Shown here one piece after another: positions 2,461 to 63,539 of a stretch of 64,000 bases of DNA. Position 1 is the first letter of the stretch; each line of letters opens with the position of its first letter. Below the pieces are notes generated by a model. That model had not been told where the DNA came from, did no database searches, and saw only the letters and a program-made list of their open reading frames with translations. Made by a program: the position numbers and the translations under genes. The stretch is from Cordylochernes scorpioides (taxonomy: Eukaryota; Arthropoda; Arachnida; Pseudoscorpiones; Chernetidae), in the NCBI GenBank assembly GCA_030710605.1, contig CP092865.1, positions 135,363,500 through 135,427,499 of the forward strand, given 5' to 3'.

Positions 2461-2734
2461 CTACTAAAATTAGGCTTAAATCGTCCAGGAAGAAACCAAA
2501 AATAATGTGCGATGTCAACAGAGATATTTGCAGTGCATTGTAACACTTTTAAGAACAGTACGCATACTCTAACTACAACCGCTATGCTCCACACTTACCA
2601 AAGTATTGTATTTTTAAGGAAAAAAAAAAAAAAAAGACATCTCCTTATCGTGTAACTGAAAGTTGCTGATGGCTTTCACCATCTATCAGAATAATGATGT
2701 CTTTTTTTTTTCTTAATTTATGTACCATATCACA

Positions 2735-2803
2735 TTGATAAGGCACAATTTGGATTATAGATTATAAACACAAGGTAATAAGTACCTATTATTACCTTGT
2801 GTT
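2735..2803. mobile_element. Short hammerhead-family foldback, internally deleted, with 14-bp TSD
   Basis: Consists of the tail (TGATAAGGCACAATTTGG), the start of the arm and the inverted arm end ACCTTGTGTTT. Flanks are TGTACCATATCACA (2721-2734) and TGTACCTTATCACA (2804-2817), a 14-bp target-site duplication with one mismatch. The hammerhead core has been deleted. Confidence 0.8.
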
Positions 2804-3308
2804 TGTACCTTATCACAGTACAATATACATTTGTACTATTTTTCCATATTGTATTTTTAGTAATAAATTTGTATTTAGAAAAGAATTATCTAATGTTTTA
2901 GAAATTTGATTTAAAAAAAAAAAATCAGGCAAATTATCGATTATGTTGAATTATCATTTTTTTATAAGGTTATACACTATTTTTAAAGGAGTAATTAGTA
3001 GACAAAGCTAAATGTCATGTAACAAGTGGTTGAAGGTGTATCCTAGAATTATGTTCCTAAATATAATAATGATCGCAGACAAAGAAATGACAGATAAGTG
3101 TGGAGCCAGATTTATTAATCAGGGATAAAAACTGAGTATGGACTAAAGAGACATTTCAGTTAACTGGACCATAAATACCGCACCTTTGTCCATTGTTTAT
3201 TACCCTGGTTAGAATTGGGACCTGGATTCTTGAACCCATTGTTAATTCCTGTTGTTGTTTCCTTTGAATAGGCTTAGTAGGAGTTTTTAAACTGCCGAAA
3301 TATATACA

Positions 3309-3689: not shown

Positions 3690-4002
3690 TATAGTAAATT
3701 AGGGGAAAAAAAGCATTAAAGCATGAGTGTTGGATACAGCATAATTTATATTATTGATTATAAACACAAGGTAATAGAGGTTCACAAACTCTTTATAATA
3801 AAATCACTTAGGAGCAAGATTTTTATGCTTCTATAACCCACTGTTAAAACAATTGGGTTGTAAAACTTGGTTGATGTTATACCAAGCTTCTAATTGTTTT
3901 TGGTTCCGTCACCAATCCAAACTGTACTAACCTATCCTGCTAGATGAGAAGAGAGTGAATGGAAGAGATGGACAATTGACAATTTAAGCAGTTTTATTGA
4001 TT

Positions 4003-4232
4003 GATAAGGCACAATTTGGATTATAGATTATAAAAACACAAGGTAATAAGACCAAATCCAAATAAATAAATAGTGTGTGACTTTTCTTGTTTACACACTT
4101 GATAACAATAACTGTTTAAACCATGCTGTGGTAAAATTTATCATTCAGTACTTTTGTCTGAAGATGGTAACAATACTGTTACAGAAAGGTCACACACTAT
4201 TTATTTATTTGTATTTGGTCTTATTACCTTGT
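4003..4232. mobile_element. Hammerhead-family foldback element with 12-bp TSD
   Basis: Tail TGATAAGGCACAATTTGG on the left, arms about 100 bp, right end CCTTGTG. Flanks GTTTTATTGATT at 3991-4002 and 4233-4244 are a perfect 12-bp duplication. The plus-strand core reads CTGAAGA, GGTAACA/TGTTACA, GAAAG, so the helix II closing pair and the base after GAAA are mutated and the ribozyme is probably inactive. Confidence 0.82.
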
Positions 4233-4350
4233 GTTTTATTGATTTTTCTAATCAATTGTTAGAGAAAGAAAGATCAAATAAAGGAGTAAATAAAGGGTAG
4301 ATAAAATGTGTAGGGAACATATATATATAGTTGTATTTATATATTAAAAA

Positions 4351-7740: not shown

Positions 7741-8080
7741 GTGTACACTTACAGTGTAAGTAGCCAAAATCCACCATAATTATCATGGCCATGTGTACAT
7801 AGGACAAATAACACTATGAAGTTTGATGGAAGTGAAAGGAAGGTTTTTGTCAGCGAAGTAAAGAGACGAAGCTGAGTACAGGAATATGACAGCTGGGATG
7901 ATGACACAGGGAATTTCTTCTTTACCTTAGAACTAATTGTCTTCTTTGTGTCATTCCATAGTCTCTTCTTCTCTTAAGTTACTTACCACAGGGTCTTTCT
8001 GTGTTGTTACAGTTGTGTGTTCATCATTAAGATGAACACGAGTGATACGATTTTATTCATAAAGATATGGTTGCTTTATA
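7741..8080. other. Non-repetitive-looking stretch
   Basis: No ORF, RNA or recognised element between the 46-bp array and the foldback at 8082. Confidence 0.4.
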
Positions 8081-8081
8081 A

Positions 8082-8366
8082 ACACAAGGTAATAAGACCA
8101 AATCCAAATAAATAGTGTGTGACGTTTCGGCAACAGTGTTGTTACCATCATCAGACAAATGTACTGAATGGAAGACCAAATCCAAATAAATAGTGTGTGA
8201 CATTTCAGTAACAGCATTGTTACCATCTTCAGACAAAAGAACTGAATGATTTTTTGTCTGAATATGGTAACAACGCTGTTACCGATACGTCACACACTAT
8301 TTATTTATTAGGATTTGGTCTTATTACCTTGTGTTTATAATCTATAATCCAAATTGTGCCTTATCT
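8082..8366. mobile_element. Hammerhead-family foldback with 16-bp TSD; minus-strand core intact
   Basis: Begins ACACAAGGTAATAAGACC and ends with the tail CCAAATTGTGCCTTATC, i.e. tail on the right. Flanks TATGGTTGCTTTATAA (8066-8081) and TATGGTAGCTTTATAA (8367-8382) are a 16-bp duplication with one mismatch. The left arm is partly duplicated (8160-8235). Confidence 0.85.
8120..8157 (-). ncRNA. Hammerhead ribozyme core (CTGATGA type)
   Basis: Read on minus: CTGATGA, one extra T, helix II GGTAACA / loop / TGTTGCC, then GAAAC and GTC followed by ACACAC. Helix II pairs fully with one G-U. Stem III would be the self-complementary AC/GU. The flanking TTTGT can pair with ACACA as a short helix I. 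Core residues fit CUGANGA and GAAA. Activity is inferred and not shown. Confidence 0.65.
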
Positions 8367-8866
8367 TATGGTAGCTTTATAATATAATATTTAGGAAATG
8401 AAAAGATTAAAGCACAAATATTTATTTTTACACATAAAATTAAGTTCTATTGGAAGGATCCTGCAATGAAAAAATATAAATTCAGTGTAGCATATATAAA
8501 CAGAATTGTCCTATAGATACAAGAAAATGAGACCTAATTCATTTTTTTCTTGCATCTATAATCTATAATCCAAATTGTGCTTTATCAGAATTGTCCAATA
8601 CAACATTAGAGATCTAAGAAATGGTTTGGTAGATTTTTTTTTTTTACTTATCCTTTTAGTCTAAATTAGACAAGATCTTGGAGTTCATGCTCATAAAGAA
8701 GTTCAAGAACTCTTCTTGGTTCTCTGTACAGGGATCTCTTGTCCTTTCCAATACAATTCTATATACAGTTACGAGCGTCATTCTTCATCAGTCATCTCTG
8801 TCACCGTTTGCTTTTTTTTTTGGAATGGCGCCCTCCTATTGGTCGGCTACGATCACGCCACCTTTG

Positions 8867-10439: not shown

Positions 10440-10830
10440 CACGAATTCTATGATTTCATGCTCCTCGAGCTGTTTCTTCTTCTTTCTTATCTCCACACTG
10501 GGTGAAGTAGAATGCGTCTGCCTTTGTCATCAAGACTGGGAGCACTACTCAGTAGCAGGCCGACTTAGCTCCAAAAGAAATGGCCGCCTCTGACATGAGG
10601 AACAGACACCATGTGCAGCTGCTCCTAACATGGAGTACAAACGCTGCTCATCCTATATCCCTGGATTAGGAGCCCTTACAGGGTACTATCAGCCAGGCCA
10701 GCTGAACCCAGATTTTTTACCGAGCTTGTTACTGCTCCCCCTCCCCCTTTTTCATCCGGGCTTGGGACCGGCAAAGGCGGGGTTAAGCTGTTTTATGATA
10801 AGCAGTGGCCTCTTCCAAAGGTCCTGTATC
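10440..10830 (-). mobile_element. LINE/SINE-like retroposon 3' end, (GAA)-rich tail
   Basis: Shares CTTCTTCTTTCTTATCTCC, TAGAATGCGTCTGCCTTTGT and GCTTGGGACCGGCAAAGGC with 44332-44643 and 57945-58365. The 44332 copy has an 11-bp target duplication, so this family moves by retroposition with its A/G-rich tail at the low-coordinate end. Confidence 0.65.
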
Positions 10831-16422: not shown

Positions 16423-16652
16423 GACGATAAAAACATGGCGAAGGAAGACGAGTTTCTTTTATTGGTGCATTAGAGCAAGCTTTCGGGCAAAAGCCCTTCG
16501 ACAGGCAAGATAAAAACGACACTATGAACGATGATTCGAACATCGTTCATAGTGTCGTTTTTATCTTGCCTGTCGAAGGGCTTTTGCCCGAAAGCTTGCT
16601 CTAATGCACCAATAAAAGAAACTCGTCTTCCTTCGCCATGTTTTTTATCGTC
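16423..16652. repeat. 230-bp near-perfect palindrome with a hammerhead-like relic
   Basis: Left arm from GACGATAAAAACATGGCGAAGG and right arm to its inverse pair almost base for base around the centre GATGATTCGAACATCG (16530-16545). On plus at 16570-16594 it reads CTGTCGA, extra A, GGGC-TTTT-GCCC, GAAAG. This matches hammerhead layout except that core A6 is replaced. Structure resembles the larger foldback family, so it may be a pLTR-like remnant. Confidence 0.75.
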
Positions 16653-20093: not shown

Positions 20094-20166
20094 GTCCAGG
20101 GTACTTAGTGGACATGGCATCTGCCCGGTAAGCGGAACACTGTGGGTTCGATTCCCATCCCTGGAC
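20094..20166 (+). pseudogene. tRNA-like sequence within an inverted repeat
   Basis: 73 nt with a perfect acceptor stem (GTCCAGG/CCTGGAC), 5-bp anticodon stem TCTGC/GCGGA, loop CCGGTAA and T-arm GTGGGTTCGATTCCCAT. If read conventionally the anticodon would be GGT (Thr), but base 33 is C instead of T and the D-stem is broken. AACGGAAAAATAT on the left is mirrored by ATATTTTTCCGTT on the right. Better read as a tRNA-derived repeat than a functional gene. Confidence 0.6.
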
Positions 20167-32925: not shown

Positions 32926-33385
32926 TCCACAAAGACAATTAGGAGATGGTCTTCAAGCCTCCATACCTCAAGTATGGATTCACCAGCCTTCACTAGACAT
33001 AGACACAGCAGACTCTGCAAAGATATAAAACTAGAATCAGATTTGCTTCCACTGCCGAGGCTTTGGTCAACATTTCATTAACCCTGTGCCTTTCAATATA
33101 AAATCTTGCCTGTAGACCATCTTCCTAGGAACCCATTTAATGCAAACATTTTCCAAATTTTATTATTTTTTTTTTTGAGTCAAAATATGGATAAAACAGT
33201 TGGCTTTTGCCTCAAATTAAATAAGAAAATAGGATCAAAATAAGCTGTTAAATGCTGAGATTTTTCAGCAGACAGGAATAGATAATAACGAAGAGAATCA
33301 ATTAGAAGTAATACTAACTTCTGAACATAGGCATTATTGGAATTGATGACATTGATGAAAATATGGATAAATAATAAAAAAGGTT

Positions 33386-33760
33386 AACACAAGGTAATAA
33401 GACCAAATTCAAATAAATAAATTGTGTATGACGTTTTGGTAACAGTGTTGTTACCATCTTCATTCAGTACTTTTGTCTGAAGATGGTAACAATGCTGTTA
33501 CCAAAACGTCACACACTATTTAAATAAAAGAAAATAAGACCTAATCCAAATAATTTATTAGTGTGTGACGTTTCGGCAACAACATTGTCGCCATCATCAG
33601 ACAAATGTTGTTGCCGAAACGTAACACCTTAATAAATTATTTGGATTAGGTCTTATTTTCTTTTATTATAATCTATAATCCAAATTGTGCCTCATCGTCG
33701 CACACTATTTATTCAGTCTTGTGTTTATAATCTATAATCCAAATTGTGCCTTGTCAATAA
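33386..33760. mobile_element. Cluster of two hammerhead-family foldbacks (subfamilies A and B)
   Basis: 33386-33525 is subfamily A (ACACAAGGTAATAAGACC). 33528-33695 is subfamily B (AAGAAAATAAGACCTAATCC arms), followed by two tail copies (CCAAATTGTGCCT). The B copy has a minus core with helix II GGCGACA/TGTTGCC, a compensatory change relative to GGTAACA/TGTTACC. Confidence 0.75.
33565..33604 (-). ncRNA. Hammerhead ribozyme core with compensatory helix II
   Basis: Minus strand: CTGATGA, extra T, GGCGACA / ATGT-type loop / TGTTGCC, GAAAC, GTC, ACACAC. The U-A pair of other copies is C-G here, which supports selection on, or descent from, a paired helix. Confidence 0.6.
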
Positions 33761-33769
33761 AAAGGTAGA

Positions 33770-35383: not shown

Positions 35384-35574
35384 TCTTATCTATAAGATAG
35401 TTGTAATATAAAGGCTTAATATAATTGCCATTTCTTTTGTTATTTCATTGATTTACAGGATAGAAATCCAAAGCTTAGTCTTATATCCAGTTTCAGCCGG
35501 AATAGTTAAAATTTGAGGAAGTATATAAGGAACAAATAAATACATGTAGGTATATTTACTAGATACAAGAAAAT

Positions 35575-35815
35575 AAGACTTAATCCAAATAATTTAATAG
35601 TGTGTGACGTTTCAGTAACAGCATTGTTACCATCATCAGACAAAATATCCGGAGACTTATTGACTTGTTCAAAAGAATAATTTTATTATTTACTTTTATT
35701 TTTTACAATTTATTCTTTTGTCTGATGATGGTAACAATGCTGTTTCTGAAACGTCACACACTATTAAATTATTTGGATTAGGTCTTATTTTCTTGTATCT
35801 ATAATCCAAATTGTA
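35575..35815. mobile_element. Hammerhead-family foldback, subfamily B
   Basis: Arms ACAAGAAAATAAGAC...TTAATCC and inverse, tail CTATAATCCAAATTGT on the right. Minus core CTGATGA / GGTAACA-TGTTACT / GAAAC / GTC with one G-U; plus core damaged in helix II. Confidence 0.75.
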
Positions 35816-35924
35816 CCGTACAAACATTAACTTTTATTTATATAGATATTTTGTTGAAGCCAAATATCAGGTGTGGTGAAGTATGAAACACAAATTTAGC
35901 ATTTAAAAATAAATTAGAATAATA

Positions 35925-39262: not shown

Positions 39263-39412
39263 AAATCAAAACTATATCCTTTTATTATCTAATCCTGTGC
39301 CAAATTTATTTATTTTTTAAAATTTCACTTGCAATAAATATCAGTAAAAATATTTCATTGTGGTTATTATACCAATTTATCTGATACACCCTGATGATAA
39401 ATTTGAATTATA

Positions 39413-39527
39413 GATACAAGAAAATAAGACCTAATACAAATAAATTGTGTGTGACGTTTCAGTAACAATGCTGTTACCGAAACATCACACACTAATAAAT
39501 TATTTGGAATAGGTCTTATTTTCTTGT
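39413..39527. mobile_element. Hammerhead-family foldback, subfamily B, short
   Basis: ATACAAGAAAATAAGACC arm and its inverse GGTCTTATTTTCTTGTA with a truncated centre GTAACAATGCTGTTACCGAA, so only one half-core remains. Confidence 0.7.
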
Positions 39528-39840
39528 AACTGATACACCCTGTATCCTAGCAGAATGTACCCAGCTTTGTCCAGCCACACTTTGCCTTGGGAAGCTTAAT
39601 CACACAGTTAAATAAATTGAGTTTAAAAACCTTGTTCATAAATAATAGCAACCAATTTCTCAGATTTACCAATGCTACACCTATTTACTTTAAAGTATTC
39701 AGCATTTGACTTCACCATCCACCCAGTCTCAAGTCTTCTTACAAGGTCTTTTCCAACACTTGCTTAAAAGCATTAATAGGGATTTTGACTGAAATATCAA
39801 ATCAAATATGTAAATATAACTCTGTGATGTAATTAATAAG

Positions 39841-44300: not shown

Positions 44301-47300
44301 CCATATTGGGATTGCTTGGCTCATTGGTAGTCTTCCTTCTTCTTTCTTATCTCCACACTGGGTGAAGTAGAATGCGTCTGCCTTTGTCATTAAGACTGGG
44401 AGCATACCAAGTGGCAGGCTGACTTAGCTCCAAAAGAAATGGCCGCCTCTGACACGAGGAACAGACGCCATGTGCAGCCGCTCATAACATGGAGTACAAA
44501 CACTGCTCATCCTGTATCCCTGGAACATAAGCCCTTACAGGGTACTATCAGCCGGGCCAGCTGAGCACAGGTTTTTTAGTGAGCTTGTTACTGCTCCCCC
44601 TCCTCCTTTTTCATTCGGGCTTGGGACCGGCAAAGGCAGAGTTTCATTGGTAGTGAGCCCACCCAGCGGTTTTGCTATTTTATTTTAAAAAGTATCTTAC
44701 ACAACCAAAATAGTTTGAATTTCTTAAAAAAATTATTTAGGTAACCTAGGCTCTTGGAGCTACCCAATCTTATTTACAACAATTAATATCAAACAGGTAC
44801 ATGAGAATAGGTATTTCTAACTTGCATTATTCTTTTTTTTTTTAAACATATTTCAACCATTTCTTGAATTTGATTTTTTTTTGTTTTTCCTTGATAGCCA
44901 TCAAATTTTTATCATTATGCAATGAATATTTAATATGAAAATTTCATTTTTTAAAAAATCAGAGTAACTTCTCAAACATGGTGTACATTGTCTCGCAAGA
45001 TTTCAATAAGCATTTGCTAGGCCTCAATGGCCAGGATGATCTCACCATTACCTCTTGATGGTGGTTTGCCATTAGGATGATGCTGTATTAGCAAAAGAAT
45101 TGTAATATTATGGCTACAATATAGGCTGGCATACAAATGATAAGGTACAATTTGGATTATAATAAGGCACAATTTGGATTATCTATATATATATATATAT
45201 ATATATAATTGAATGTCTGTCTGTACTCTATAGATTCAAAAACCATTCATCCAATCGCCGTGAAATTTTGGGATATTATTAGGTATATCCCCGGGAAGGT
45301 TTTTGAAAAATAATTTCTTGAATATCCCGAATATCCTTAGAGTTATTTGCAGATTTGTATATTTAACTCGCAAGCAGCGACGATGATAACAAGTTTTCAT
45401 CTATACTTTTTATTATCACTAAGTTTATTATCTTAAAGATTATTTATCAAAAGTAAGATTTTCTACCTATTAATTGCGCACAAGTCAAAGCTAGTTTTAT
45501 CATTTATCTACAACATATATATTGGGAGAATAGATAAAATGATGATTTTGTAATGTAGAAAATTAGGAAAGACAAAATTCAGGATGACACGTCAATTTAT
45601 TTGAGACAAGAATAATGATAATTAATATTGATTTTATTCAACTTATCGAGTATTTTTCAAGGGACCGGGAAAAAATGTTCACTCTATCGAGAGATTCAAA
45701 TTTACGAGTTTCAAATTATCAAAATATATCTATTATTTTTAACTTATGTTATATTCAAATGACATTTATGTAGGAATAATTTTATTGTTAATTTTCATTT
45801 TGATGTATTGTATACATTTGATCATTAATATATTATTATTTAGGTATTAAAACTGCCTTTTTGTTCAAAGACAGCAACGTTTGAATGGGTACAGCTAGGT
45901 GGAGCAGATAATCAAACATAAAGTTATCTTGCCAAGTATAGATTCAGTAGGGATTAGGTGTTTTCTAGAATTGTTTTAACTAATGTTCGTTAGGTAAACT
46001 CTCACTAGGGTAAAACCCGGGCGAAGCCGGGTACATCCGCTAGTAGATTACAAACACAAGATAATAAGACCAAATCTAAATAGTAATAAAGCACAATTTG
46101 GATTATAGATTATAATACAAGAAAATAAGACCTAATCCAAATAATTTATTAGTGTGTGACATTTCAGCAACAACATTGTCACCATTCTTTTGTCTGATGA
46201 TGGTGACAATGTTGTTACCGAAACGTGACACACTAATAAATTATTTGGATTAGGTCTTATTTTCTTGTATCAAATCTAAATAGATAAATAGTGTGTGACA
46301 TTTCTGTAACAACGTGTAACTAGCTTCCACCAGTTTTATTTTGATTCCTTGGAATCTTGTTATAACAGCAACTTATATAATATTTTTAAAATTATAATTG
46401 TCTTAAGTGATGATAGCAATGACATATTTATGACAACCTAAAACCTCGGTTCCAAGTACCATTGTTATAATGAGGTTTCACTCTATAGGTATTTATTATT
46501 TTACACCCAAACAGGGCTATGGCATACTTGTAAGTGCAAAGTCAAACTTTTGCTTTTTACATGTGTGGACATGTGGTGCATTTACAGTAAAAGCAATCGC
46601 CTATTTCTACCCACCATGATTATCATGGCCAGTACCACGTGTACTAGAGATAAGCAAAAATTTGCACACACACACATATATATATTAGCACTTTTTAATA
46701 ACCAACTAGGAAATGGTCCGTTCAACAAACATGCCTAGAACAACAGCCAGTTCTGAGCTTTAAAAGCTTTTACTGTAATGAATTATGTTTGAGTAATAAA
46801 TTTAAACCCTACCTACTATAAATTGATATGAAAATATGATTTTTCTAACTTTCATTTTTTTAAATCACATAAAAGTGCACCACATGTCTACATATGTGAA
46901 AGGCAGTTTGACTTTTGCACTTACAAGTGTGCCAAAACCACATTTGGTTACTTGCACTTGCTGATAAAGTTGGACTTTTGTAAGAATTGGGGCCATTGGA
47001 ACATTAAAAAAAAAATAGAAACACAAGGTAATAAGATCAAATCTAAATAAATAGTGTGTGACGTTTCGGTAACAATGTACTTAGTACTTTTGTCTGAAGA
47101 TGGTAACAATGCTGTTACCGAAATGTCACACACTATTTATTTATTTGGATTTGGTCTTATTACCTTGTGTTTATAATCTATAATTCAAATTGTGCCTTAC
47201 CAAAATTTTTTTTACAAATAAATTTTATCATACTGTGCAGGTTTTATTTTCACTTGCTCATTCACGATGACCTTTCTCTTGAATTGGAAAAAAGAGAAGG

Positions 47301-50300
47301 AATCTTAGAAAAAAAAAAAAAAAGAACTGCGATGCTTGCTCTGTGTGTTTTTGCTTTGTTGTTTTTTTTTTTCTCTTTGGACAATTTTCTTTAGTTAATT
47401 TATGTAAAATAATGAATTGAACAGGATTGTATATAGCCGAATTGCTGTAATGCAGTGAAAGGTATTGACGCAAATATCCCTAAGTTTGGGATATCGCGTT
47501 TCATGATGTTAATAAAGTTAATTAATTAATTAATTCACGATGACATTGCCTTTATTTGGAACTTTTTTTAAAAGATATATAATACTTGATAAGAAAAAAA
47601 GCATATTTTAAAATAATAGTTGTTAATTTTTAATATATATTACACTGAAATACCTCTTTGATAAGGATTTCAAGTAACCAGATCAAAATCTGCATTAATG
47701 AATATATGTATTAAAAAAGAATGATGCATTTATTTTTATGATGATTGATCATTCTTTTGAAATAATATACATAAAAATCAATGAGAAAAAAATTGAAAAC
47801 ATGAATAAAAATATTCTATATTTATAAAAATAATTATCATAAAACATGTTTGTTTTAAGGCACAATTTGGATTATAGATTATAAACACAAGGTAATAAGA
47901 CCAAATCCAAATAAATAAATAGTGTGTGATGTTTAGGTATCAGCGAATCTTCAACACTTTTGTCTGAAGATGATAACATGGCTGTTACCGAAACGTCACA
48001 CACTATTTATTTATTTGGATTTGGGCTTATTACCTTGTGAATACATGTTTGTGTATTTTTTTCTAATATATTGTAAAAATTACCTAGAATTTTCCAAAAA
48101 AGGTAAAAACTGGTTCAATTTTTGGGGTCTAAATCACAATTTGGAACAGCTACTTTCACAGTAGAGATAGAAGCTCTTAAATTTGATTTTAAAGGGAGAA
48201 AGATTTCATGCTTGTTATCTTCTTGATCTGTTTCAACTTCAGCTTCTCCTTGGACCATTCATATGATGTCATTCTTGGTTAACATCTCCGCTACTTTCTT
48301 TGCCAACATTAATTCATTTATTTTGTAGAACACAACCTTATTTCATTCTTGTAATTTAACAAACCATCCATTGCTTGCTAAGAAATCATTGTAACCAAAT
48401 TTAGCTAAAAATATAATTGACTTAATAACTTGTTGAGTCAAAGGAATATTCAGTGTTTGCCTGCTTGATCTAGATAACTAAAGCTTCTTTAAGTTTTGGA
48501 AAATTAGTGAAACGTAAATGCTTTTTAAAAATGTGTCTAATTGACTCTCTGTAAAAGTCTTCAAAATATTATATATATATTTTTAATAAATGGAAATAAC
48601 AGTTAAAGTGCATATACCAAATTGTTTTGCAACTTTTACTTGTTTTTGTTTTTATGATGAAAATTTCATAGATTATTTTTATTTTGTCTTCTAAATAAAT
48701 TGCCTTCTATTTTTGTTTATTGTTAATGTCGCCTGAAGTGCTTGAGTTATTTGTTTTATTATTATTTTTTAATAAAAAGAAATACTGTAATATTTTAATT
48801 CAGAGAGTAGTAATATAAAGGTAACCCGGGTTCCTGGAGCATATCCATAGATCACCATTAGAGTGTAACCTGTATATATTTTAAATTATAGAGAGAGATA
48901 TTTATAACCCAGGTTCCTGGGGAGCGTCAACTACCCGGGGAGTCCAGCTCACTAGTATGGACTAGTGTTGAGTGCTTTTACTCGTGTCCTGTTTTGATTG
49001 CTGAGTTGAACCAGTTGACCAGAAATTTCCTTGCTGAGGTTGAGTCTGGGAGACTGGCCATAGATGTAGGATTGAGGTGGGTCAGTCCAAGCAGGATAAC
49101 TGTTTGTATCCTATGTCTCAGGAATGCTGGACAGCCGAAGAGAAGATGATCGGCTGTCTGTGGCTCTTCTGAACAGTGGAACAGTGATTATATGTTGATT
49201 AATATATATAAACTGAGTAATATAAAATATAATACAGATTAATCTTAATTATTTTAAGAATTTTGCTTTTTCTTTGAGTAATAATAATAATTTATTTATT
49301 TATTTAAAAAAAAAATTCCATATTAATGAATTAGTATAGATGTTGGAGGACCATAGAAAATCCCTATTATAGAAAAACTGTATTAAAGAGGTATGTATTA
49401 CTGCATATCTATGCCTATTATTATTGTAAAAAAATAATATAACAAAATCTGATGATTGATAAGGCACAATTTGGATTACCTTGTGTTTAAAATCTGATGA
49501 TATTTGAAGCATTTTAATTATCAGAGTTTTGGCTTAAAGACCCAAGGGGGTAAAATTGTGCATCCCCAACACACATATCAGATCATATCAGGTTTTGTAG
49601 ATTATATCGATTTTGTATATTTTAACGATAAAAAACTGCAATGAAATTTTGTTTTATCAAGTTTTTCTATTTTCAGTACTTGAAGTGCCTTTAATAATAA
49701 CAAAAAAAGTGATGGCCATAATTACAGATTTTGGTCAGAAGTAGGTGCCATGTGGTAAAATGATGACTGTATATATAGGGGAGTATTATTTAGCCCACAC
49801 AATCAATGGATGGATATAGAACTGCAGTCACAGCCCTCTTTAAACTGTGCATTAAAGATTTATCTTTACAAAGATGAATGATAAGCTATTTGTGTGAAAA
49901 ATAATCATATTATTAAATCTGATAAGGCACAATTCGGATTATCCCTATATATAGTCACGACCGTCATGGGCCGGTTCTGTCACGGATGCGCGCGCATCAT
50001 CATTATGATCATTATCATTATCTAATGATAATAATAATAATAATTATTATTATTATCATTATATTATTATTATATAGTCACGACCGTCTTTCCTCAATTC
50101 CTCATCGGCCGCTGTCACGGATGCGCGCGCACAGGGAGGTCACCTGCTCGCCGGCAGCCAACGGGCGCGTGCCGCCGGCATTACGTCATAGATTATAAAC
50201 ACAAGGTAATAAGGCCAATTAAAAAAATAGTGTGTGATAAGGCACAATTTGGATTATCTACTTATATAATTGCCTTATTCTGTCTGTGGGAAGTTCACTG

Positions 50301-53300
50301 TGTGAAGTTCACGGATAGATTTTGGTCAGAATGGATAAAATAAAAAAAGTGTCAAGGGATGGGAATCGAACCCACGACCTTCCGCTTACCGGGCAGATGC
50401 CATGACCACTAGGCTACCCTGGACATATTTTTCCGTTCACATTTTCATTTTTATATTTTCAAGACACACACAGTTTGGGGCGGGACGTTTCACAAAAGAG
50501 ACATCCACGGCGCCAATTTATAATTGTAACGAATAGTATTTTAATTAAAACATTTTAAAAATATATACGCACTCGGGTAAAACCCGGGCGTTGCCCGGGC
50601 CATTCGTCTATTAGATTATAAACACAAGGTAATAAGACCAAATCCAAATAAATAAAGTGTGTGACGTTTTGGTAACAGCATTGTCACCATCCTCAGACAA
50701 AAGTACTGAACTAGTAGAAGTAGTGTGGTAAAATTTCTCATTCAGTACTTTTGTCTGAGGATGGTGACAACGCTGTTACCGAAACATCACACACTATTTA
50801 TTTATTTGGTCATATTACCTTGTGTTTATTATTAAATCTATAATATGGTACACTGTGGTGGCCACACCACGTCTCAGCCAGCGCGTGAGTTTAGAGAACA
50901 CCTCGGCCCGTGCACACCACTGGCGCATGACATCTGGGACGCTTGGCACATGCACTGTTCAAACAACAAGGCTTTCTCCCAATGGTCGTTATTTCCTTCC
51001 TCCCTTCATTTCGAGAACTTTAAATAAATTAATTTAGTTTATAAAACATAATTTTTATCATCGGCCTTTCCACAAGCCACACCACACATGCACAAAGCCA
51101 CACCACACATGCACAAAGCCACAGTGCCATTTGGATTATAGATATGAATCAATGATAAGGCACAATTTGGATTATAGATTAGAACTAAGAGATAAATAAG
51201 ACCTAAATCCAAATATATTAATAGCGTGTTTTGGTAACAACTGTTACCGAAACCTTGCAAACTTTTAATTTATTTGGATTCAGTCTTATTATCTTGTAGA
51301 TCAGAATCAGCTTTGTCAGATGATGCTGTCACTGAAACATCACAAACATTTTAATAACTCTGATGTCTTGTTACCTTTGGTTTATTATTGAATCTACTTT
51401 ACATAAATAAGTTTGAAAAGACTGGTAATCAAGTTGTTAGTTTCACAATTTCTTTTACCAATTCCCCTATTCTGAAGGCTCCTAGTTTTATTAAATATAT
51501 ATTTTTTAAAGAAAAGCATCAAATGACTCTTTTTTTATTTTAAAATCCTAAATATGCTTATTCTTGTATCAAATTCAAACAGACACTCATTCAGCCTATA
51601 TTTTGATTTATGATTTTTTCCAATAACAAAAAGTTAGGTATTCCAATAATAAATATTGAAACATTTTTTATTGGTCTCAGTCCTCTACATAAAATATGGA
51701 AAGTTATCATTGCATAATTTTTCATAATGCAAAAGCTTTCTCATTAAAACTGTTTAAAAGAGGGAATTTTGCCCAGGGCGGACTAAAGACCAGCTGTTTG
51801 AAGATCTAAAGAACAACCGTGCCAAGGCCACCACAGCGCGGGAGCCAGAAAAGAAGCAAGCCTCAGCAGATCCCAGGAGGAGGCCTTCCTTCACCAGCAA
51901 AGAGCCCAACAATGTGCATCTGCCAGACTTCACCAAGCCCCCGCCTCCACTCGGGGAACCCCCCATGGCATATGCTCCTCCCCCAGCTGTGTACAATAAC
52001 GAGAAGACCCCCACAGTTAGTGAATACAGCTATGGTGGGTCGGACCACTCTGCATTCTACCCCACCACCCACTCAGACTACTCTGACTATAGCAGTTATC
52101 AGTCCAACCATTCGACACCGCTTAGCTTTGAGGGCCCAGGGTATGCTTACAAGAATGCTGGGAGCCAGGGCAGTTTTATTGCCGGTCCCCCTCTCCCGCC
52201 CCCTCCGCTGCACCCTCCCCTCCCTCCTCCTTTGCCCCCTCCACCTCCCCCTCCCACCCAACAGCAATGGGCTGACCCATGGGACACTTGGGATCAAACC
52301 TACCAACAGAAGCCTCAGCAGGCCAAACAAAGTCCTGCCCGAGGTAGCTTAGATTCTCGTATTGAACTCCTTCTCAAGCAAAGTTCAGAAGGCAAGGCAG
52401 TCGGCCCAGCGGCTGTCTTCCTGGACTTGGAGCCGACCCTCAGCAGCCCTCCAGTCCCACCTACTCCCACCAGGGTGGAGAAACCAGCTGAAGAGAGCTA
52501 CTCCCTCACCTCTCCCTTCCCCGAAGAGCTTATACCCCTTCCTCCTGACACTTCTCCACTTCCCCCTCTCCCAGAATCCTCAGATGAACTCAACCCTTCT
52601 GTTGAAAATGACGAGAAGTTCGAGGCTCTCTCTACTCCCCCCCTCTCCCTTCACCTCCAGGTCAGAGTATATGCGATGGGCCAGGTTTACCCATGATGTG
52701 GAGCTGGGGAAAGGCCTGCTGGCTCCTGACGGGTATCCCAATCACTCTGGCTCGGAAGAAGAGGAAGAATCAGGGACCATCTCTCTGAAGAACTTGACAC
52801 TTTCTCAGCCAGACATCAAGTCAGGTTGTTCAGTAGAAGTGGAAGAAGCAACAAGGTCCCCAGCCAACCGAGGGGATTCCACCCCTCTCCAAGATGAGCC
52901 TTCAGAGTCCCAGGGGGATCATGTTATTGAAGATGACAGGATGTCCCTATCCTCCTTGAGTAGTGGGGAGAAGTTGGAAGTGCTGCCAGCCCCCCCTGTT
53001 GTTGCCGCCCCATATAACCCCGCCTATCCCCCCCCAACATTCAATACTTCATATCAAAATCCCATGTACCCTAGTGAGGAGGTGAAGCGAATGGCAGAAA
53101 TGGGCATTTGGAAGCCAGGACTCTCCTATGGCATCCACCATGAGATGTATACTTCTCCCGAACAGAGCTACAATGCATCTTCTTATCAGAGCTCGACATC
53201 TCATTATCATTACAACTCCCATAATACCACCTCGTCGTACGAGACCTCCCATTACCCCCGCCATTACTTCCATCAGTACAACAACAGCTTCGTCCAGTTT

Positions 53301-56300
53301 CCCCCAACCAACGGGTATCCTGGCTCTCATCCTTCTAGGTCATCTTTCAGGGGAGATACCAGGTGCAACAAAATCCTGGACATGGTAGTGGAGGAGCTGA
53401 GAACAGTTCTGAAGAGAGACATAGAGAAGAAGCTAGTGGAGACCACAGCCTTCAAGTACATGGACCACTGGTTTTTTGATCAGGAGAATAAATCCAAGGT
53501 AAGAGAGATGCCAGCAGGTCTAGGTGATGATGATAACTCCATGATGGTGGTGGGCAGAGCGAGCAGCTGGAGGCTGGCAAGAAGTCCCATCCTGAGATCA
53601 ACCTGAATGACATCATCCGTCCAGACTCTGTACTTGGGGAAGGTGCAAACTTCACCTTGGGTCTGAGAGCAGCACTGCCAAAGATGCCTTCCTTCAGGGT
53701 GAGCATCCCACATGGAGACATTCTTTGTTTTTAATAAGCTTCAACTAACTATTATCCTACTTTATTTCACACAAGACCCTGTTGGAATTTACAGTTATGT
53801 CCCAAGATATTCAATTTTTTATTCTACTCTACTCTCTCTCTTTAGCTCTTTTTAAGCATGTTTTGAATCATCAAGTGTCTTGAGATTTTATCAACATAAT
53901 TTTGAAGGGATTTTGTCAGTTCTATAAAAAAAAAATCTACTAGAGGAGGGATGGCTGTTATAAAGAGAGTTGACTCTAATTGGACACACAATGGTTTAAA
54001 CTGATATTGAACAAAGTAAACATCAACTCACAACTAATCCTCAACAAGATACATGTAAACAGTCTCCATGTCATTGTGGACAAGAGATAATAATAAGAAA
54101 GAAAGTTAACATCGACCTATACAAATATATTCTTTGCGGAGGTGTTGAATTAAAGACATTGAATCTTAATATATTTGTGGAAAACTGGTATTTCAATAAC
54201 TAGTTTTTCAAAATAATTCTTAGGTTATTTCCCAGATTGGAGTCCCAAAAGGAAATCTTCACAAAATGATATAGCACAATTTGGATTATAGATTATTGCT
54301 ACAAGAAAATAAGACCTAATCCAAATAAATTATTAGTGTGTGATGTTTGGTAACAGCGTTGTTACCATCATCAGACAAAAGAATAAAATTATATATAAAT
54401 AAATAATTATTTTGTCTGTGTGATAATGGTAACAACGCTGTCAATGAAATGTCCACTAATAATTTATTTAGATTAGGTCTTATTTTCTTGTAGATATAAT
54501 TTATAATCTAAATTGTGCTTTATCATTTTGTGAAGATTTCCTTTCGGGACTCCAATCTGGGAAATAACCTAAGAATTATTTTGAAAAACCTTAGTTAGTT
54601 ATTGAAATATCAGCTTTCCACAAATATATTAAGATTCAATGTATTTAATTTACTTGTAGGAATTCTTCACAGTTTGAATCTTCTTTCTAATATCTCTCTC
54701 TCTGGCAGAGTCTTTCCCGCAGTGGGCGCCACCAATGAAGACCCCGTTTATATATTTATATATATGAAAAAATAATAGAAAAAATAAATAATAAAAAAAA
54801 TAAGTGGGTCAGGTGTTGATATTAAAAATATTGTACCTTCTGTAATTCAAAACTAAAAATGAAATCACTCACTATATTTTCGATTGCTCTGCTCTGAAAG
54901 AAGAAAGAAAAACCCTTATGCTCAAAACTGGGCAACTCTGTGCTTCACTTCCATCAATAATTGACAATATGACCCAGAATAAGTATATTGCTACGGCGTT
55001 TTATGGTTTCCACAAGTCCATATCTCAGAAGAAGACCAAGTGACACTCACTCCTCACTTTCTTACTGCTACTCTTTTTGTGTTGTTTTTCCTGCTTCCCT
55101 CTTTCTCTTTCTTATTTTTTTTTCTTTTTCTTCTGTCTATATCATTGTTTCCTTTGTCTCACTGCTTTGTTCTTATGCATACCTCTGGTGAATCCTGTAT
55201 AGGGTCAGTGACCCTAAATAAAGGCTTTTTGTTGTTGTTGATATTAAAAATAAAAAAAGGCATATCCTGACCAGGAGCACATGTGCTTTTCAGAAGGCAG
55301 AGCGCCATCTGGTGGAACAGGCTAAATCAATGTTTAATTGATTTCTGTTCCACCAGATGGCGCTCTGCCTTCTGAAACGCACATGTGTTCCTGGTCAGGA
55401 TATGCCTTTTTTATTTTTAATATGTATATTTATCAATTATTTATATCTATTTAATCATATATTTATCATTATATAATCTTATTTATTCTGTGTTTAACCT
55501 TATATGGACATTGTAATAAATCAGTTTCAATCGCTCAGCTAAGTGTTGTTGGTATCCAGAAAAAGAGGAAACCTCCGTCTCCGTCCCAGCTGGATGATGA
55601 TGACAGCAGTAAGCCAGCAGCTGAAGAGTCAGGTTGGTAGCTCCCCCACTCCCCCCCAGACCTCCACACTGACCTCTGGTGGTGACAGATGATGACAAGA
55701 TGGACTATGAGTATGATGGCCTGGTGGCTAAAAGGTTGCGACAAGGAGCTTCCACAGAAGATGAAGCCAGTTCTTGTGAGAGTGAAAGTGAAAAGGAAGA
55801 ATCAGGTAATCAAAACAATCTGTTTTATATTTCTTCTACACAGTGTGGTGCATTAGCATGCCAGTTGTTATAAGATATTTAAACTACAGTTAAACCTGTC
55901 TATAGCGCCCCCCTCTAAATAGTGTCTTCCTCTCTATAGCCCCCGATTTTTAACATTAAAATGTAAACATTTTACATTAAAAGTGACCTTTTGATGAGGC
56001 ACAATTTGGATTGTAGATTATAAACACAAGGTAATAAGACCAAATCCAAATAAATAAATAGTGTGTGACTTTCGGTAACAGCGTTGTTACCATCTTCAGA
56101 CAAAAGTACTGAATGAATTCAGTACTTTTGTCTGAAGATGGTAACAACGCTGTTACCGAAACGTCACACACTATTTATTTATTTGGATTTGGTCTTATTA
56201 CCTTGTGATTAAAAGTGACCTGTCTATTGAACCCCCTCTCTATAGCACCCTATTTTGGTGAGTCCCAAGAGGGTGCGCTATAAACAGATTCAACTGTATT

Positions 56301-57659
56301 TTGATGCTTCTTTTAAAAATAAAAATATTTTCTACTGCCCTGTGTAGTCTAGACACAAGAAAAAAGTAAAGCCTCAGCAAAGAAATAACTAGACTCATAC
56401 ACTTGCCATGATTTTTTTCAATGGACAAACTACTTTTTTTTTGCCTCTCTCTGAAAATTTTTTAATGATGGTATTTCATTCATTTTCTTTTTCCTAAAAC
56501 GAACATAATAATAAATGCATAGCTCATCTCCGCATTTAAAGCCTTCAGCAAAATGTCTCGTGAGAAACATTTTAAATATTAGCTGAGCAAGGCATCTATT
56601 TCATGCCACTAAACATGGATTCTTCATTTCATATACAGTAGAAATTACCCCCTGTAAAGGACACTCAATTGCAGAGCTAAAGTGTCCTTTAGGGAGAGGT
56701 GTCCTCTTATCGTAGAGTTGCTAATTAGTAAAAAAGGTATTTTGGCAATGAAAACTGTCCTTTGTAGAGAGGTGTCCTCTCATGGAGGTTGTTCTACTGT
56801 ATAAGGAGATATTTGGACAAACATTTCTGACCATTATTCATCCATGCCTGCACACCCTTTCTTTCTACAATTAACATCTTTTATAACATTGTTTTTAGGA
56901 TATAATTTTGTTGTGTTGGTCAATTTTTATTGTACTGTTGATTCTTCCCAATCAAGTGTACCCATGCCATTTATAGACACATTCCTTGTAATTATCAATT
57001 GCAAAAAATAATAAAGTTGTAAAATATAATATTTCATGCAATATGTTAATTAGCTAAAATCCAATATAGAAATGTGCATAAGTTCTAGCTAAATTACATA
57101 TTAATAAAAATAAAAAAAATTGCACTTGAGCTTTTCAGATGGCAGAGTGCCATATAGGGAAACAGTAAATCAACCAAACGTTGATTTAACTTGTTCTGTG
57201 ATATTTGGCCAACCCGATTTCTTGATAAATCAAGAAAAGCCGACAACATACGTGTTTCGGGATGTTGGCCCTCATCAGCGTGGTACAGACTATACCTCTA
57301 CGGCCAAAATTTTGGTCCTAGAGGCCTCCTGAGAATATACAGTAGAACCTCCCTGTAAAGGATATCTAGTTGCAGAGCCAAAGTATCCTTTAGCGAGAGT
57401 TGTCCTCTTACTGGAGAGTTGCTAAATTGTAAAAATGGCAATTTTGCAAATGAAAACTGTCCTATGTGGAGAGGTGTCCGCTAAAGAGAGGTTCTACTGT
57501 ATATTGCCTGTAGTTTTCAGAGAATTGTTAGGTGACTGACCCTCTGCCATCCCCCAGCACAGAGCTAACTCCCAGCTGACCTGTGCAGAGAGCACCTCCA
57601 CCGAGAGCTCAGAGGAGGAGTCGGAAGAAGAAGAAGAGGAGGATGATGAGGAGATGGAG

Positions 57660-57691
<32 letters not shown>

Positions 57692-60600
57692 AGTGTTACA
57701 GAAGGTGGAAGTCCCGCCACCAACAGTTGAGCCAATGGAGGTGGATGACATCCGGCAACTGGAGTCTCCTCCCTGCAGGTCCATCACCCCGGTGCCCTCG
57801 GAGCCAGCCTCCCCTCTGACTGCCATCCTGTCTCCTCCAGTCTCCCCCCCCTCCCCACCATCACCACCACCAGTTGCTGTGGTTGTTGTTCCTCCCAGGT
57901 AACTATGGCCAACACTTGTGTACTCTCTAAGTGTGTTTCTTTCTTATCTCCACTCAATCTTATTAGCTCGAGGAGCATGAACTCATGGAATTTGTGTAAT
58001 TAGGGTTTCAAGCTTGTAGAGCTTGAGATGAGTAGAGTCATCAAAGGAGATTTGACATCCATAATGAGAGAGAAAGATTGGGTAAAGTAAAATGCATCTG
58101 CATTTGTCATTAAGACTGGGAGCACTACTAAGTGGCAGGCCGACTTAGCCCCAATATGAAATTACACCTCTGAAATGAAGTACAGAAGCCATGTGCAGCC
58201 GTTCTTAACATGGAGTACAGAGACTTCTCATTCTGTATCCCTATATCATGAGCCCTTACAGGGTACTATCAGCCAGGCAAGCTGAGCCCAGGTTTTTTAG
58301 CGAGCTTGTTGCTGCTCCCCCCCCCCTCCTTTTTATTCCAGGCTTGGGACCAGCAAAGGCGGAGTTGTGTATCGACCTGAACCAGTATTATACCCCCACT
58401 CTGTGCTGAGAGATTTAAAAAGTTGGAGATTCAATAATCTTTTCTCACAGACCAACTTCCTTAATTCAACACCATACAACTACAACCATAGTTGGTTAAG
58501 TTTATTATTAATTTTTCACAACATATTCTCACAGCTAGTTGACATTTTCCTAGGACATTGTTGTCCACACTTAAGTGAGTGTTGAATTAAAGACCGTGTG
58601 TTGAATTTAAGTGGTTAAACTAAATAGGTTGATTGGGATTTGGAAAATGGTAGAATATATCAAGTGTAAAATATAGTTGAGATTGAGTTGAAGAAATTCT
58701 ACTACATTTCTATAGAAAGATCCCTGAAGGAGACTACAGAGTATCATGATTCTTCTGCATCAACACACGCACTTTAAAATACTTTATTTAAACCTCAATA
58801 TATCCAGTCAAACTCAAAATTCAGCACCCAAGGGTTCTCAAGTTTGTTTAGAGGCTATACTATGTAACAATCCTCGTTGAAATAACATACAGTATTTCAA
58901 ATGTTGGAATAAGCACACATATCATAAAATTAAACACAAATTTCTAAATCTCCACAATAAAATATAATATCTCAGTTAAATGAAAAAGGATAGGCTTAGG
59001 GAATAAGGAATTTGATGGGAATTGAAAATAAAGCCCATAATAGAGTTTTTATATAGATTACAGATGAAAATAAAGAAATAGTAAAGTCAAACATAAAATA
59101 ATGATAGTGTATTATTTTGATCTGATCCTGTTCCTTTGTCACAATGTGTCCACCTGAGTTAGTTAGATGGTACTGTCCCCCTAGTGAGACCTAGCTAACC
59201 AGGCTGCTGTGGTCAGGGAGCCGACGCCTGTCAAGGAAAAGACTCCAGACAAGATCGTGGCGGTGGAGAAGGAAGAGGAGCCAGTTGTACAACCTCCAGT
59301 TCCTACAGAAAAAGAAGAGCCACCAGTGCCACCACCGAGGAAGAAGGCCTGGGCCCAAGATATCTATTCTGACAGCGAGGAGGAGGCATTCACCAGAACA
59401 GAGAAGAGACCTGATCTCATCTCGGAAGAGACAGAATCTGCCTCGGAGTCTGAAGCCCAGAACACCTACATGACCCTTCCATCTGCTGACACCATCATCC
59501 CCTCAGCATCTCCTCCTGAAGAACCAACAAAGAAGGAGTATGAAGCATCTGAAGCCTTGATGGCGCTTGCTGCTGGAATAACAGAATTCTTCCCCTCAGC
59601 TCCCTCACAGACTGCCCCATCCACCTTGCACCTCTGGCTGGACCATGACTACTGCTTACCTCGGGCCCAATGGAAGAAGAGTCCATCCCCACCTGCGCCA
59701 GTTCAGCAAACTCCCAATAACCTCGATCATGAGTACACCAAGGCCCAGCCTGCGCCAGCCAAGACTAAGCGGTACCGGCGTAGGAAAAGAAAATTCCGAG
59801 AGATTGAACCTGAGCTGTCTCCTGAACCTCCAATTGTGGTCAGCAGGCCAGAACCTAAAGTTCCCCAATTCCCCCAGAGGGTTATGATTGACGAGTTGGA
59901 CATCCTCTATGAATTCTGTAAAGTGGGAATTGACGCAGAGGATGTGCAATACGTCAAGAAGGCCTATGACGCCCTGTTGCAGAAAGATCTCAGAACACAC
60001 ACAGACCTTATCTGGTTGAATGATACTCATTGGATCGACCACTCTCATATCCTTTTTATTCCTTCACTGTAGTAATTGTCAACCACAGCCTTTACTTTCT
60101 GGGAGATATTTTGGCTTGCTCCTGTATATATGTATTTATCTATGTTTATATCCCAATAATACAAAAAGATTAAATAAGACTAATATAAAAATTATATAGA
60201 GTAAAACCTTGCTAAAACAAACCGGGGATATAGTAAAACTTCCCCTATAACGTACCTAAAATAATCCCCTATAATAGTGATACCTTATAGTAAACCATAG
60301 CTTATAGTGAACCAAGAGTTCAGTCCTATTGAGGTTCACCATAATGAGGTTTTATTGTATATATATAAAAAGAACTTAGAATTGACCTAGCGATCTTAGA
60401 TTTAATATTGAATTTTGATGGTTATTGCCTCTCTGAGCTAAACAAACACTGCTGGCTGATTGGTTAATGAACTCAATGCTGATTAAATGTCATGTTACAT
60501 TGTGAATAACCAATCAGTTTACTGTTGTTTGACCTTAGTCAACCAATCAGAGTGAGAATAATGTTGAGGTATATCGGCCTTGGTGTAATTGGGAAATTAG

Positions 60601-62759: not shown

Positions 62760-63181
62760 GTGAGTGTCTGATCGCTAGCAACACAGTCTTAGTTGGCAAG
62801 ACACCTTGAAGTCTGCTACCATTTAACTTGAAGTTTTGCTTATCTCTTTCTCAATGATATTTAGATAATTGAGAAGTTTGTAATACCTGTGGTATATAAT
62901 AATTATAAGCTCCTTCATTGCCATACAGAATGAGGGTTTATTCCATTTCTGACTGGAGGAAGGATCTGGCTTCTCCTGTGTGTGTTGTCAGCCTTCAAAC
63001 TTCTTGGAAGCACTTGTAGAAATAGTTCATTCTAACCTATACTTTTTTTTTTTTTTTTTACTATGTGGATGTATTTTATATTTTTTCTCACAAGGTTCCA
63101 TCATCCAGAAAGAAATAAAAATAGGGGAAATTGTAAAGGAAAGTTAGACTAGAGAGTTGAAAGATAACCATACATCTGTTT

Positions 63182-63323
63182 AATAAGGCACAATTTGGAT
63201 TATAGATTATAGTCACAAGGTAATAAGACCAAATCCAAATAAATAAATAGTTTGTGACGTTTCAGTAACAACACTAGTCACACACTATTTATTTATTTGT
63301 ATTTGGTCTTATTACCTTGTGTT
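63182..63323. mobile_element. Hammerhead-family foldback with 13-bp TSD, core deleted
   Basis: CATACATCTGTTT at 63169-63181 and 63324-63336. Tail on left, ACCTTGTGTT on right. Confidence 0.85.
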
Positions 63324-63539
63324 CATACATCTGTTTGTAAAATGTGCATGTAAATAATGCTCTCTACCTACCACAATTTTTTCAATGTGGAATTCCATTG
63401 CTGAAATTTCTGTAGGGAGGTGAAAACATTCTATATAACTAGGATTCAGGTCTACAAAACTTTCTTCTCACAAACCCACCAATAGATTGAGCCAAACTAC
63501 AGATTTTTTGACGCCTGGAAACATTTAATTCCTATTATC

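Follow-up and report, generated by a model that had tools for sequence, protein, structure and literature searches.

Short palindromic insertions with hammerhead motifs in a pseudoscorpion genome suggest two-ended integration by a Penelope-like family

The mode by which Penelope elements insert is an open question, on which the published record offers self-priming ideas and in vitro extension on both strands. A 64,000-nt stretch of the Cordylochernes scorpioides genome (contig CP092865.1; hereafter, the window) contains a foldback at 55990–56207 that the original prediction had assigned to a palindromic retroelement family, made of joined inverted pLTRs and carrying a hammerhead ribozyme in each arm. 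Short copies of the family retain both ends, the junction, and the target duplication within about 100 to 390 nt, which allows the mode of insertion to be settled by counts within a single genome.

The foldback at 56 kb and its relatives in the window

The focal foldback is present as predicted, with outer inverted arms at 56018–56072 and 56160–56214 (95% identical) and inner inverted arms at 56070–56114 and 56117–56161 that are 100% identical and separated by 2 nt. The arms are inverted 3′ parts of one single unit. A 29-nt tail is found on the left arm only, with three T between it and the left copy of the target-site duplication, and the right arm presents the expected order of CTGAAGA, T, a 7-bp helix II, GAAAC, and GTC at 56132–56165 on the plus strand. 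The features of this copy are as follows.

55976..55989, no strand: target-site duplication, left copy ATTAAAAGTGACCT, identical at 14/14 positions with 56208–56221
55993..56021, minus strand: 29-nt tail closing the left arm on its outer side; presumed start site T of reverse transcription
56022..56113, minus strand: left (tailed) arm, an inverted pLTR 3′ part, from the arm profile and the inverted repeat
56067..56099, minus strand: hammerhead-like motif of the left arm, with stem III one base short (GAAAGTC)
56117..56207, plus strand: right (untailed) arm, ending at site P (CTTGTG)
56117..56122, plus strand: ATTCAG, from position −14; 5′ end presumed for the family RNA, from the arm-end pile-up
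56132..56165, plus strand: minimal hammerhead motif made up of CTGAAGA, the extra T, a helix II of 7 bp, and GAAACGTC; cleavage predicted after 56165
56208..56221, no strand: target-site duplication, right copy ATTAAAAGTGACCT, from duplication scoring

The foldbacks near 54 and 56 kb are bracketed by open frames at 51758–53606 and 59188–60072, which we take to resemble parts of a SETD1-type gene.

An nhmmer search of the window gave 42 arm matches in about 20 clusters. With a refined model, for which two composite arm seeds served as the basis, it gave 68 raw matches, some of them reverse-strand echoes of helix II, which we grouped by hand into 28 element intervals; on either count, the many foldbacks with shared arms that had been predicted are there. 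The insertions measure about 100 to 390 nt and fall into subfamilies A, B, and more, and their junctions vary from copy to copy. The target-site duplication score reaches at least 8 in 16/28 intervals, against a background of 12/393 random position pairs, one of which reached 19. Read by eye, all 16 duplication-bearing intervals have head-to-head ends, exactly one of which carries the 29-nt tail. Among the remaining 12, three (35560, 47015, and 51156) have one tail and no clear duplication, one (50601) has no clear duplication or tail, one (54270) has two tails, one (46036) is the split host of a nested copy, and six are fragments. Individual copies (no strand assigned) include the following.

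2721..2817: minimal insertion; two short ends, one tail, no hammerhead; duplication TGTACC(A/T)TATCACA
3991..4244: insertion; the untailed arm extends beyond the A at 4143, where the RNA is presumed to start, and reaches TTTAAA (4115–4120)
8066..8382: insertion; two direct arms and one inverted, probably through a template jump
8499..8596: B-type insertion of minimal form, with two short ends, a single tail, and no hammerhead; duplication CAGAATTGTCC
33507..33711: B-type insertion with duplication, nested in the arm of an A-type insertion (33377–33766)
35560..35820: B-type foldback; intact core in both arms, helix II of the right arm with one mismatch; one tail, no clear duplication
39378..39542: B-type insertion with the junction of its arms within helix II; duplication CTGATACACCCTG
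46071..46283: B-type copy lying within an A-type arm; duplication CAAATCTAAATAG
47841..48052: A-type insertion with a single tail and duplication ACATGTTTGT; by eye, the longer arm is the untailed one
50590..50860: A-type foldback; no clear duplication or tail; G at N7 in both arms
54148..54650: the exception, a B-type foldback with both ends tailed, contained in a larger inverted duplication whose identity is 87%
63168..63336: A-type insertion with a single tail and duplication CATACATCTGTTT

The inverted duplication at 54148–54650 has about 250 nt per arm and takes in both tails plus non-element DNA; it may be a copy-back product. Elsewhere in the window, a perfect 105-nt inverted repeat with 7 nt between its arms lies at 16429–16645 and has no arm-family matches, and two closely similar tRNA matches, one of them weaker, lie at 20095–20166 and 50351–50423, perhaps as a tRNA-derived repeat.

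Hammerhead motifs in the arms

The pattern CTGANGA...GAAAC occurs 12 times in the window, nine of them in the A/B family, against 1.16 expected, and none of 100 shuffles reaches 12. Genome-wide, it occurs 215,357 times, compared with 32,878 for the reversed pattern, with all motif families pooled. The conserved core and three helices are present in the family, and helix III is just a loopless 2-bp AC/GU. The original prediction held that among good copies the N of CTGANGA is the only core position to vary, which is true of copies chosen as good and fails overall: the core is intact in 12 of the 25 aligned arms (30 minus five that are degenerate or cut at the junction, with three further arms trimmed). 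The N7 bases that had been listed (A, T, T, and G) are correct; their places had been quoted loosely, and they are in fact at 56136 (A), 8150 and 33596 (T, minus strand), and 50759 (G). The extra T between A9 and helix II, also predicted, is found in all 25 aligned arms. Hammerheads near elements that encode reverse transcriptase (RT) and GIY-YIG domains carry exactly one extra base (T or G) at this place in 81/82 motif matches, these being the matches with a helix II of at least 4 bp out of 104, with a few overlapping loci counted twice.

Helix II had further been credited with a compensatory change. The exchange of T-A for C-G is real, but in the window it amounts to one pair and two cells and does not exceed shuffles. 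A search of the window with the Rfam hammerhead covariance models gave no match at the curated cut-off or up to an E value of 10; its microRNA matches are, in our reading, what any long hairpin gives. A further family, F, scores 27.1 bits, below the Rfam cut-off of 52. Beyond the window, covariation in helices I and II does appear. We compared A, B, E, and the families adjoining RT+GIY-YIG ORFs, a set of 10 distinct rows in which 93.5% of cells pair and 16 double-change cells occur in five pairs. The pairing percentage, the number of such cells, and the covariation score are each reached by none of 500 shuffles, and sliding the alignment gives at most seven cells, although five double-change pairs are reached by 123/500 shuffles and the number of pair types lies below that of shuffles. 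Because the rows represent few lineages, the changes may be few events. The candidate hammerhead is thus supported by the comparison across families, and not by Rfam or by variation within the window.

Whether each strand of a palindrome encodes a ribozyme, as had been proposed, depends on the copy. It holds in few copies and fails in the focal one, where the left motif lacks one stem III base. The whole-foldback transcript is predicted to form a hairpin of −152.7 kcal/mol, whereas the ribozyme region alone gives −11 to −13.5 kcal/mol, with minimum-energy folds that contain helix II and no complete hammerhead. By these energies, the hairpin of a whole-palindrome transcript should block its ribozymes instead of using them, and their pairing is more readily seen as a by-product of insertion than as a functional arrangement. 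Where a copy retains the promoter, an outward transcript would contain a single arm and could fold. The A/B motifs are putative ribozymes. Passages of a study of a lizard Penelope (PMC11167929) describe its hammerhead as cutting solely with its protein present, so activity of naked RNA is expected to be low. A review (PMC6155905) describes Penelope hammerheads as usually without helix III. Minimal hammerheads of that description resemble those found here in that the core is present, helix III is missing or very short, and loop contacts are not evident; they differ in that nearly all copies here have one extra base between A9 and helix II.

Other ribozyme-like motifs occur in the same DNA. A second hammerhead family, which does not have the extra base, is represented at 57254–57278 (minus strand) and at two loci outside the window, L001 (CCACGCTGATGAGGGCCAACAGCCCGAAACGCGTCCGTGG) and L006, both of which match Rfam HH9 below the cut-off. 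Type-P1 twister matches lie at 10735–10789, 44594–44648, and 58320–58371 (minus strand) and at L022:1875–1929, with scores of 49.7, 34.7, 28.6, and 49.0 bits in that order, below the curated cut-off of 67.2. The three window matches have a common core, GCCTTTGC(C/T)GGTCCCAAGCC, and look like a repeated family.

Copies and coding Penelopes across the genome

The genome search covered 2.62 Gb in 24 contigs. The exact 34-mer made of P plus tail occurs 15,583 times and its promoter-extended form 5,532 times, and the reversed controls of both occur 0 times. Exact-pattern scans of viral and prokaryote contigs gave 0 matches in sets from which records near the window's genome were possibly omitted. 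For a closer sample, 40 loci were taken in order from the first 2 Mb of contig C1 from a plus-strand listing of the hammerhead motif; the sample comprises A/B-like motifs and excludes the E-type and several further A/B-like motifs, including the tandem array L039. A head-to-head partner arm lies within 400 nt in 38/40 loci. One tail is present in 28 of these 38 pairs, none in nine, and two in one, at a tail score of at least 12 (500 shuffled scores: maximum, 12; 99% point, 10). Among the 19 pairs with a duplication score of at least 8 (null: 95%, 7; 99%, 9), 18 have one tail, one has none, and none has two; because L041 and L042 have common flanks and a common duplication, 17 of the one-tail cases are independent. 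Across 40 tail copies, the sequence right after the tail differs, save in three with a common flank (L081–L083), and other matches start at least 12 nt past the tail. Those three were considered as a donor and rejected, since the L081 copy has its own duplication, TTAATTATTTG.

The arms of these insertions bear on how they were made. In 26 one-tail insertions (the 28 minus the duplicate L042 and the edge-cut L044; arm matches overlap in L051 and L079), the longer arm is the untailed one in 10 and the tailed one in six, and the arms are equal in 10 at a threshold of 5 nt. In L030, the untailed arm measures about 2.2 kb and the tailed arm about 0.6 kb. Arm ends gather at −13 to −16, counting C3 as 1, in 9/17 A-type arms of the window and in 35/112 arms overall, a pile-up by count in which B-type arms stop early because the reference does not fit them well and a small number of loci overlap. 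A second peak at −39 reflects a one-base difference in the reference, and one at −4 to −6 comes mostly from B-type arms. Longer copies read TCATTC at the arm-end site, with TATTTAAA or TTTAAA about 28 to 30 nt upstream; we take these to be Inr-like and TATA-like, respectively. We infer that the RNA starts at the TCATTC site and that many arms are complete cDNAs to the RNA 5′ end. No partner arm among the 26 stops 2 nt or less from the predicted cut, whatever the state of its own ribozyme, and the templates thus seem to be uncut. At L039:1552–1822, three direct arm units, each with a hammerhead motif, are spaced 92 nt apart; the distance from −14 to P is 91 to 94 nt, matching these units and suggesting template jumps from the RNA 5′ end to P.

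The A/B copies have several features of Penelope elements: a tail at one end, an inverted head-to-head pLTR layout, variable duplications, and a hammerhead near the start sites. Matches to GIY-YIG are abundant in the genome: a first look listed 17,015 candidates, and scoring 150 of them gave 146 matches. Seven ORFs were scanned, of which five combine RVT_1 with a C-terminal GIY-YIG, one has a GIY-YIG alone near the N terminus, and one gave no match. With one RT+GIY-YIG protein as the query, 82 matches were scored of 46,224 candidates, all with at least 86% identity and several with open frames of 808 to 814 aa. Adjacent ORF pairs less than 10 kb apart among these 82 are head-to-head in nine cases, on the same strand in two, and tail-to-tail in none. 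A different hammerhead, CTGACGAGGACAAAAG(C/T)TTTTTGTCGAAACGTC, appears at 7/19 GIY-YIG loci, in some flanking the ORFs on both sides (L029 and L032), and related sequences occur in L022 and L030. Seven RT+GIY-YIG palindromes were viewed; five were assignable, all with one tail and a duplication by eye, and L024 and L027 were left unassigned. Their tail corresponds approximately to the first 12 codons of the ORF, and L027 reads on from the tail. The flank of L021 is itself a tandem repeat. Within coding copies, the arm pairs are 100% identical over 2,402 nt in L022 and over 588 nt in L030, against a difference of 3.6% between the two loci, a contrast that points to a single RNA source for each insertion. 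Another coding subfamily gives a weak contrast (98.7–99.8% within loci versus 95.5–99.0% between loci). In short copies, arms are not more alike within than between copies (0.180 versus 0.174; permutation p 0.58), a signal that age may have blurred.

Among 19 GIY-YIG loci, A/B arm pairs occur in seven and could be identified as the pLTR of the ORF in none (0/19), and 10 further 3-kb GIY-YIG loci contain no A/B arms. The A/B copies have stops in the arm or tail frame. Their description as short non-autonomous Penelope derivatives stands as to Penelope type, on the strength of tail, layout, and hammerhead; non-autonomy is likely, with no coding partner found. The GIY-YIG palindromes L023, L034, L036, and L038 were rejected as candidate partners: the arm pair of L023 proved to be a nested insertion that has a separate duplication, CCAATACCATACC, and that of the other three lies in the same surroundings. 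As elements in their own right, L023 (4.7-kb arms, 98.9% identical) and L034 (4.0-kb arms, 99.2%) hold a GIY-YIG ORF within long palindromes, to which L036 and L038 are related; the L023 ORF spans 828 aa with GIY-YIG near its N terminus. We presume that these are possibly Naiad-type Penelopes.

Routes of insertion and relation to known systems

We consider it probable that the A and B copies are a short, apparently non-coding Penelope-like family inserted two-ended through two cDNAs, one from P and one from T. RNA polymerase II would start at the Inr-like site 14 nt upstream of the minimal hammerhead, and the RNA would hold the hammerhead together with two internal start sites, P, at 42 to 45 nt past the predicted cut, and T, another 29 nt along. 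Both target strands would be cut, about 8 to 20 nt apart, by a Penelope RT/GIY-YIG protein acting in trans, and one cDNA would be primed per target strand, one from P and one from T. Both would run toward the RNA 5′ end before their inner ends were joined, yielding a palindrome of head-to-head arms that is tailed at one end and flanked by a target-site duplication. The arms would carry the hammerhead along, and the templates that lead to insertions would be uncut. The ends, the tail rule, the duplications, the varying junctions, the matching layout of the RT+GIY-YIG elements, and the covariation across families are seen in the sequences; the promoter, the protein in trans, the two priming events, and ribozyme activity are proposed. 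What had been described as a palindromic family is better read as many independent two-ended insertions. Several points run against the two-cDNA model: nine of the 38 sampled pairs are tailless and one is two-tailed, as is 54148–54650; the two arms of a short copy show no excess similarity to each other; the searches gave neither a coding partner with this pLTR nor an Rfam hammerhead in the window; the sample stems from one 2-Mb stretch; and the one-tail rule is left unexplained because in vitro, according to passages of PMC11167929, the start site of the lizard enzyme is the same on either strand.

A published alternative is self-priming, in which one cDNA folds back and is copied into a palindrome; part of the rotifer Penelope literature (PMC3846280) proposes this with an antisense template. 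Near-perfect centers, such as 56070–56161 with 2 nt between the arms, would fit such a copy-back, as would the identical arms of L022 and L030 in loci 3.6% apart and the two-tailed palindrome at 54148–54650, whose arms continue into non-element DNA. A copied arm, however, cannot have a tail that its template arm lacks, yet the commonest state is one tail (28/38). Nor can a longer arm be copied from a shorter one, and the untailed arm is the longer in 10/26 sampled insertions and in L030, so that in these neither arm was copied from the other and both were made on RNA. We therefore regard self-priming as an unlikely origin for the family. That a fused inverted-pLTR element is transcribed and mobilized whole is, in our estimate, less probable again: some longer palindromes (L070 and L075) have TATA-like and Inr-like sites in both arms, but junctions vary among copies, arm lengths are unequal in 16/26, and the minimal inserts at 2721–2817 and 8499–8596, too short for a ribozyme, have the same ends. 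The coding Penelopes of this genome are likewise head-to-head, and the joined palindrome as a replicating unit is not supported. Inverted ends and target duplications would also suit a foldback or MITE DNA transposon with a hammerhead-like hairpin by chance, a reading made scarcely credible by the asymmetric ends with a single tail, the varying duplication length, and a tail and hammerhead layout that match the Penelopes of the same genome.

With two-ended insertion as the preferred reading, a broader proposal follows, for and against which we find the balance about even: that Penelope integration is regularly two-sided, with a P cDNA and a T cDNA from one RNA source joined at their inner ends, and that a bare segment of promoter, hammerhead, and P/T, about 125 to 180 nt in all, suffices as a mobile unit owing to its internal start, with more than 15,000 exact-match ends here. 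The family is of a known kind, and its copies show the insertion mode of such elements unusually clearly. Their abundance suggests, too, that a non-coding family of ultra-short size can be driven by Penelopes, and they would supply minimal hammerheads in large natural numbers, each with an additional base beside the core. In the portions of the open-licence literature covered, neither a comparably ultra-short Penelope family nor the use of the one-tail rule to argue for two-sided priming was found described.

The closest known systems belong to the Penelope/Poseidon group, namely, rotifer Pen_Av (PMC3846280) and lizard PAc (PMC11167929), as far as the passages drawn on describe them. Rotifer Penelopes form head-to-head palindromes in which one inverted pLTR bears a tail of 31 bp and the duplication measures 9 bp (PMC3846280), with which the A/B layout agrees. 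The lizard element in vitro has both strands cut and extended and uses two internal start sites that bound the tail, and its hammerhead mutants insert on par with the wild type (PMC11167929). Unlike these elements, A and B are without an ORF in the copies seen, measure about 100 to 390 nt, have in-frame stops in the tail, and number more than 15,000 exact ends. Animal retrozymes, in the part of their description used here (PMC7229834), are likewise short non-coding retroelements with a hammerhead; they are tandem repeats with units of about 170 to 400 nt, whereas foldbacks prevail here and a 92-nt tandem was seen once (L039). MITE and foldback transposons differ in that the tail here is one-sided and the terminal inverted repeats are not symmetric. 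In L1 twin priming, two cDNAs primed at two places in the target are then joined, giving occasional inversions. The A/B insertions would resemble it in consisting of two joined cDNAs, but here, the two-ended insertion looks like the rule.
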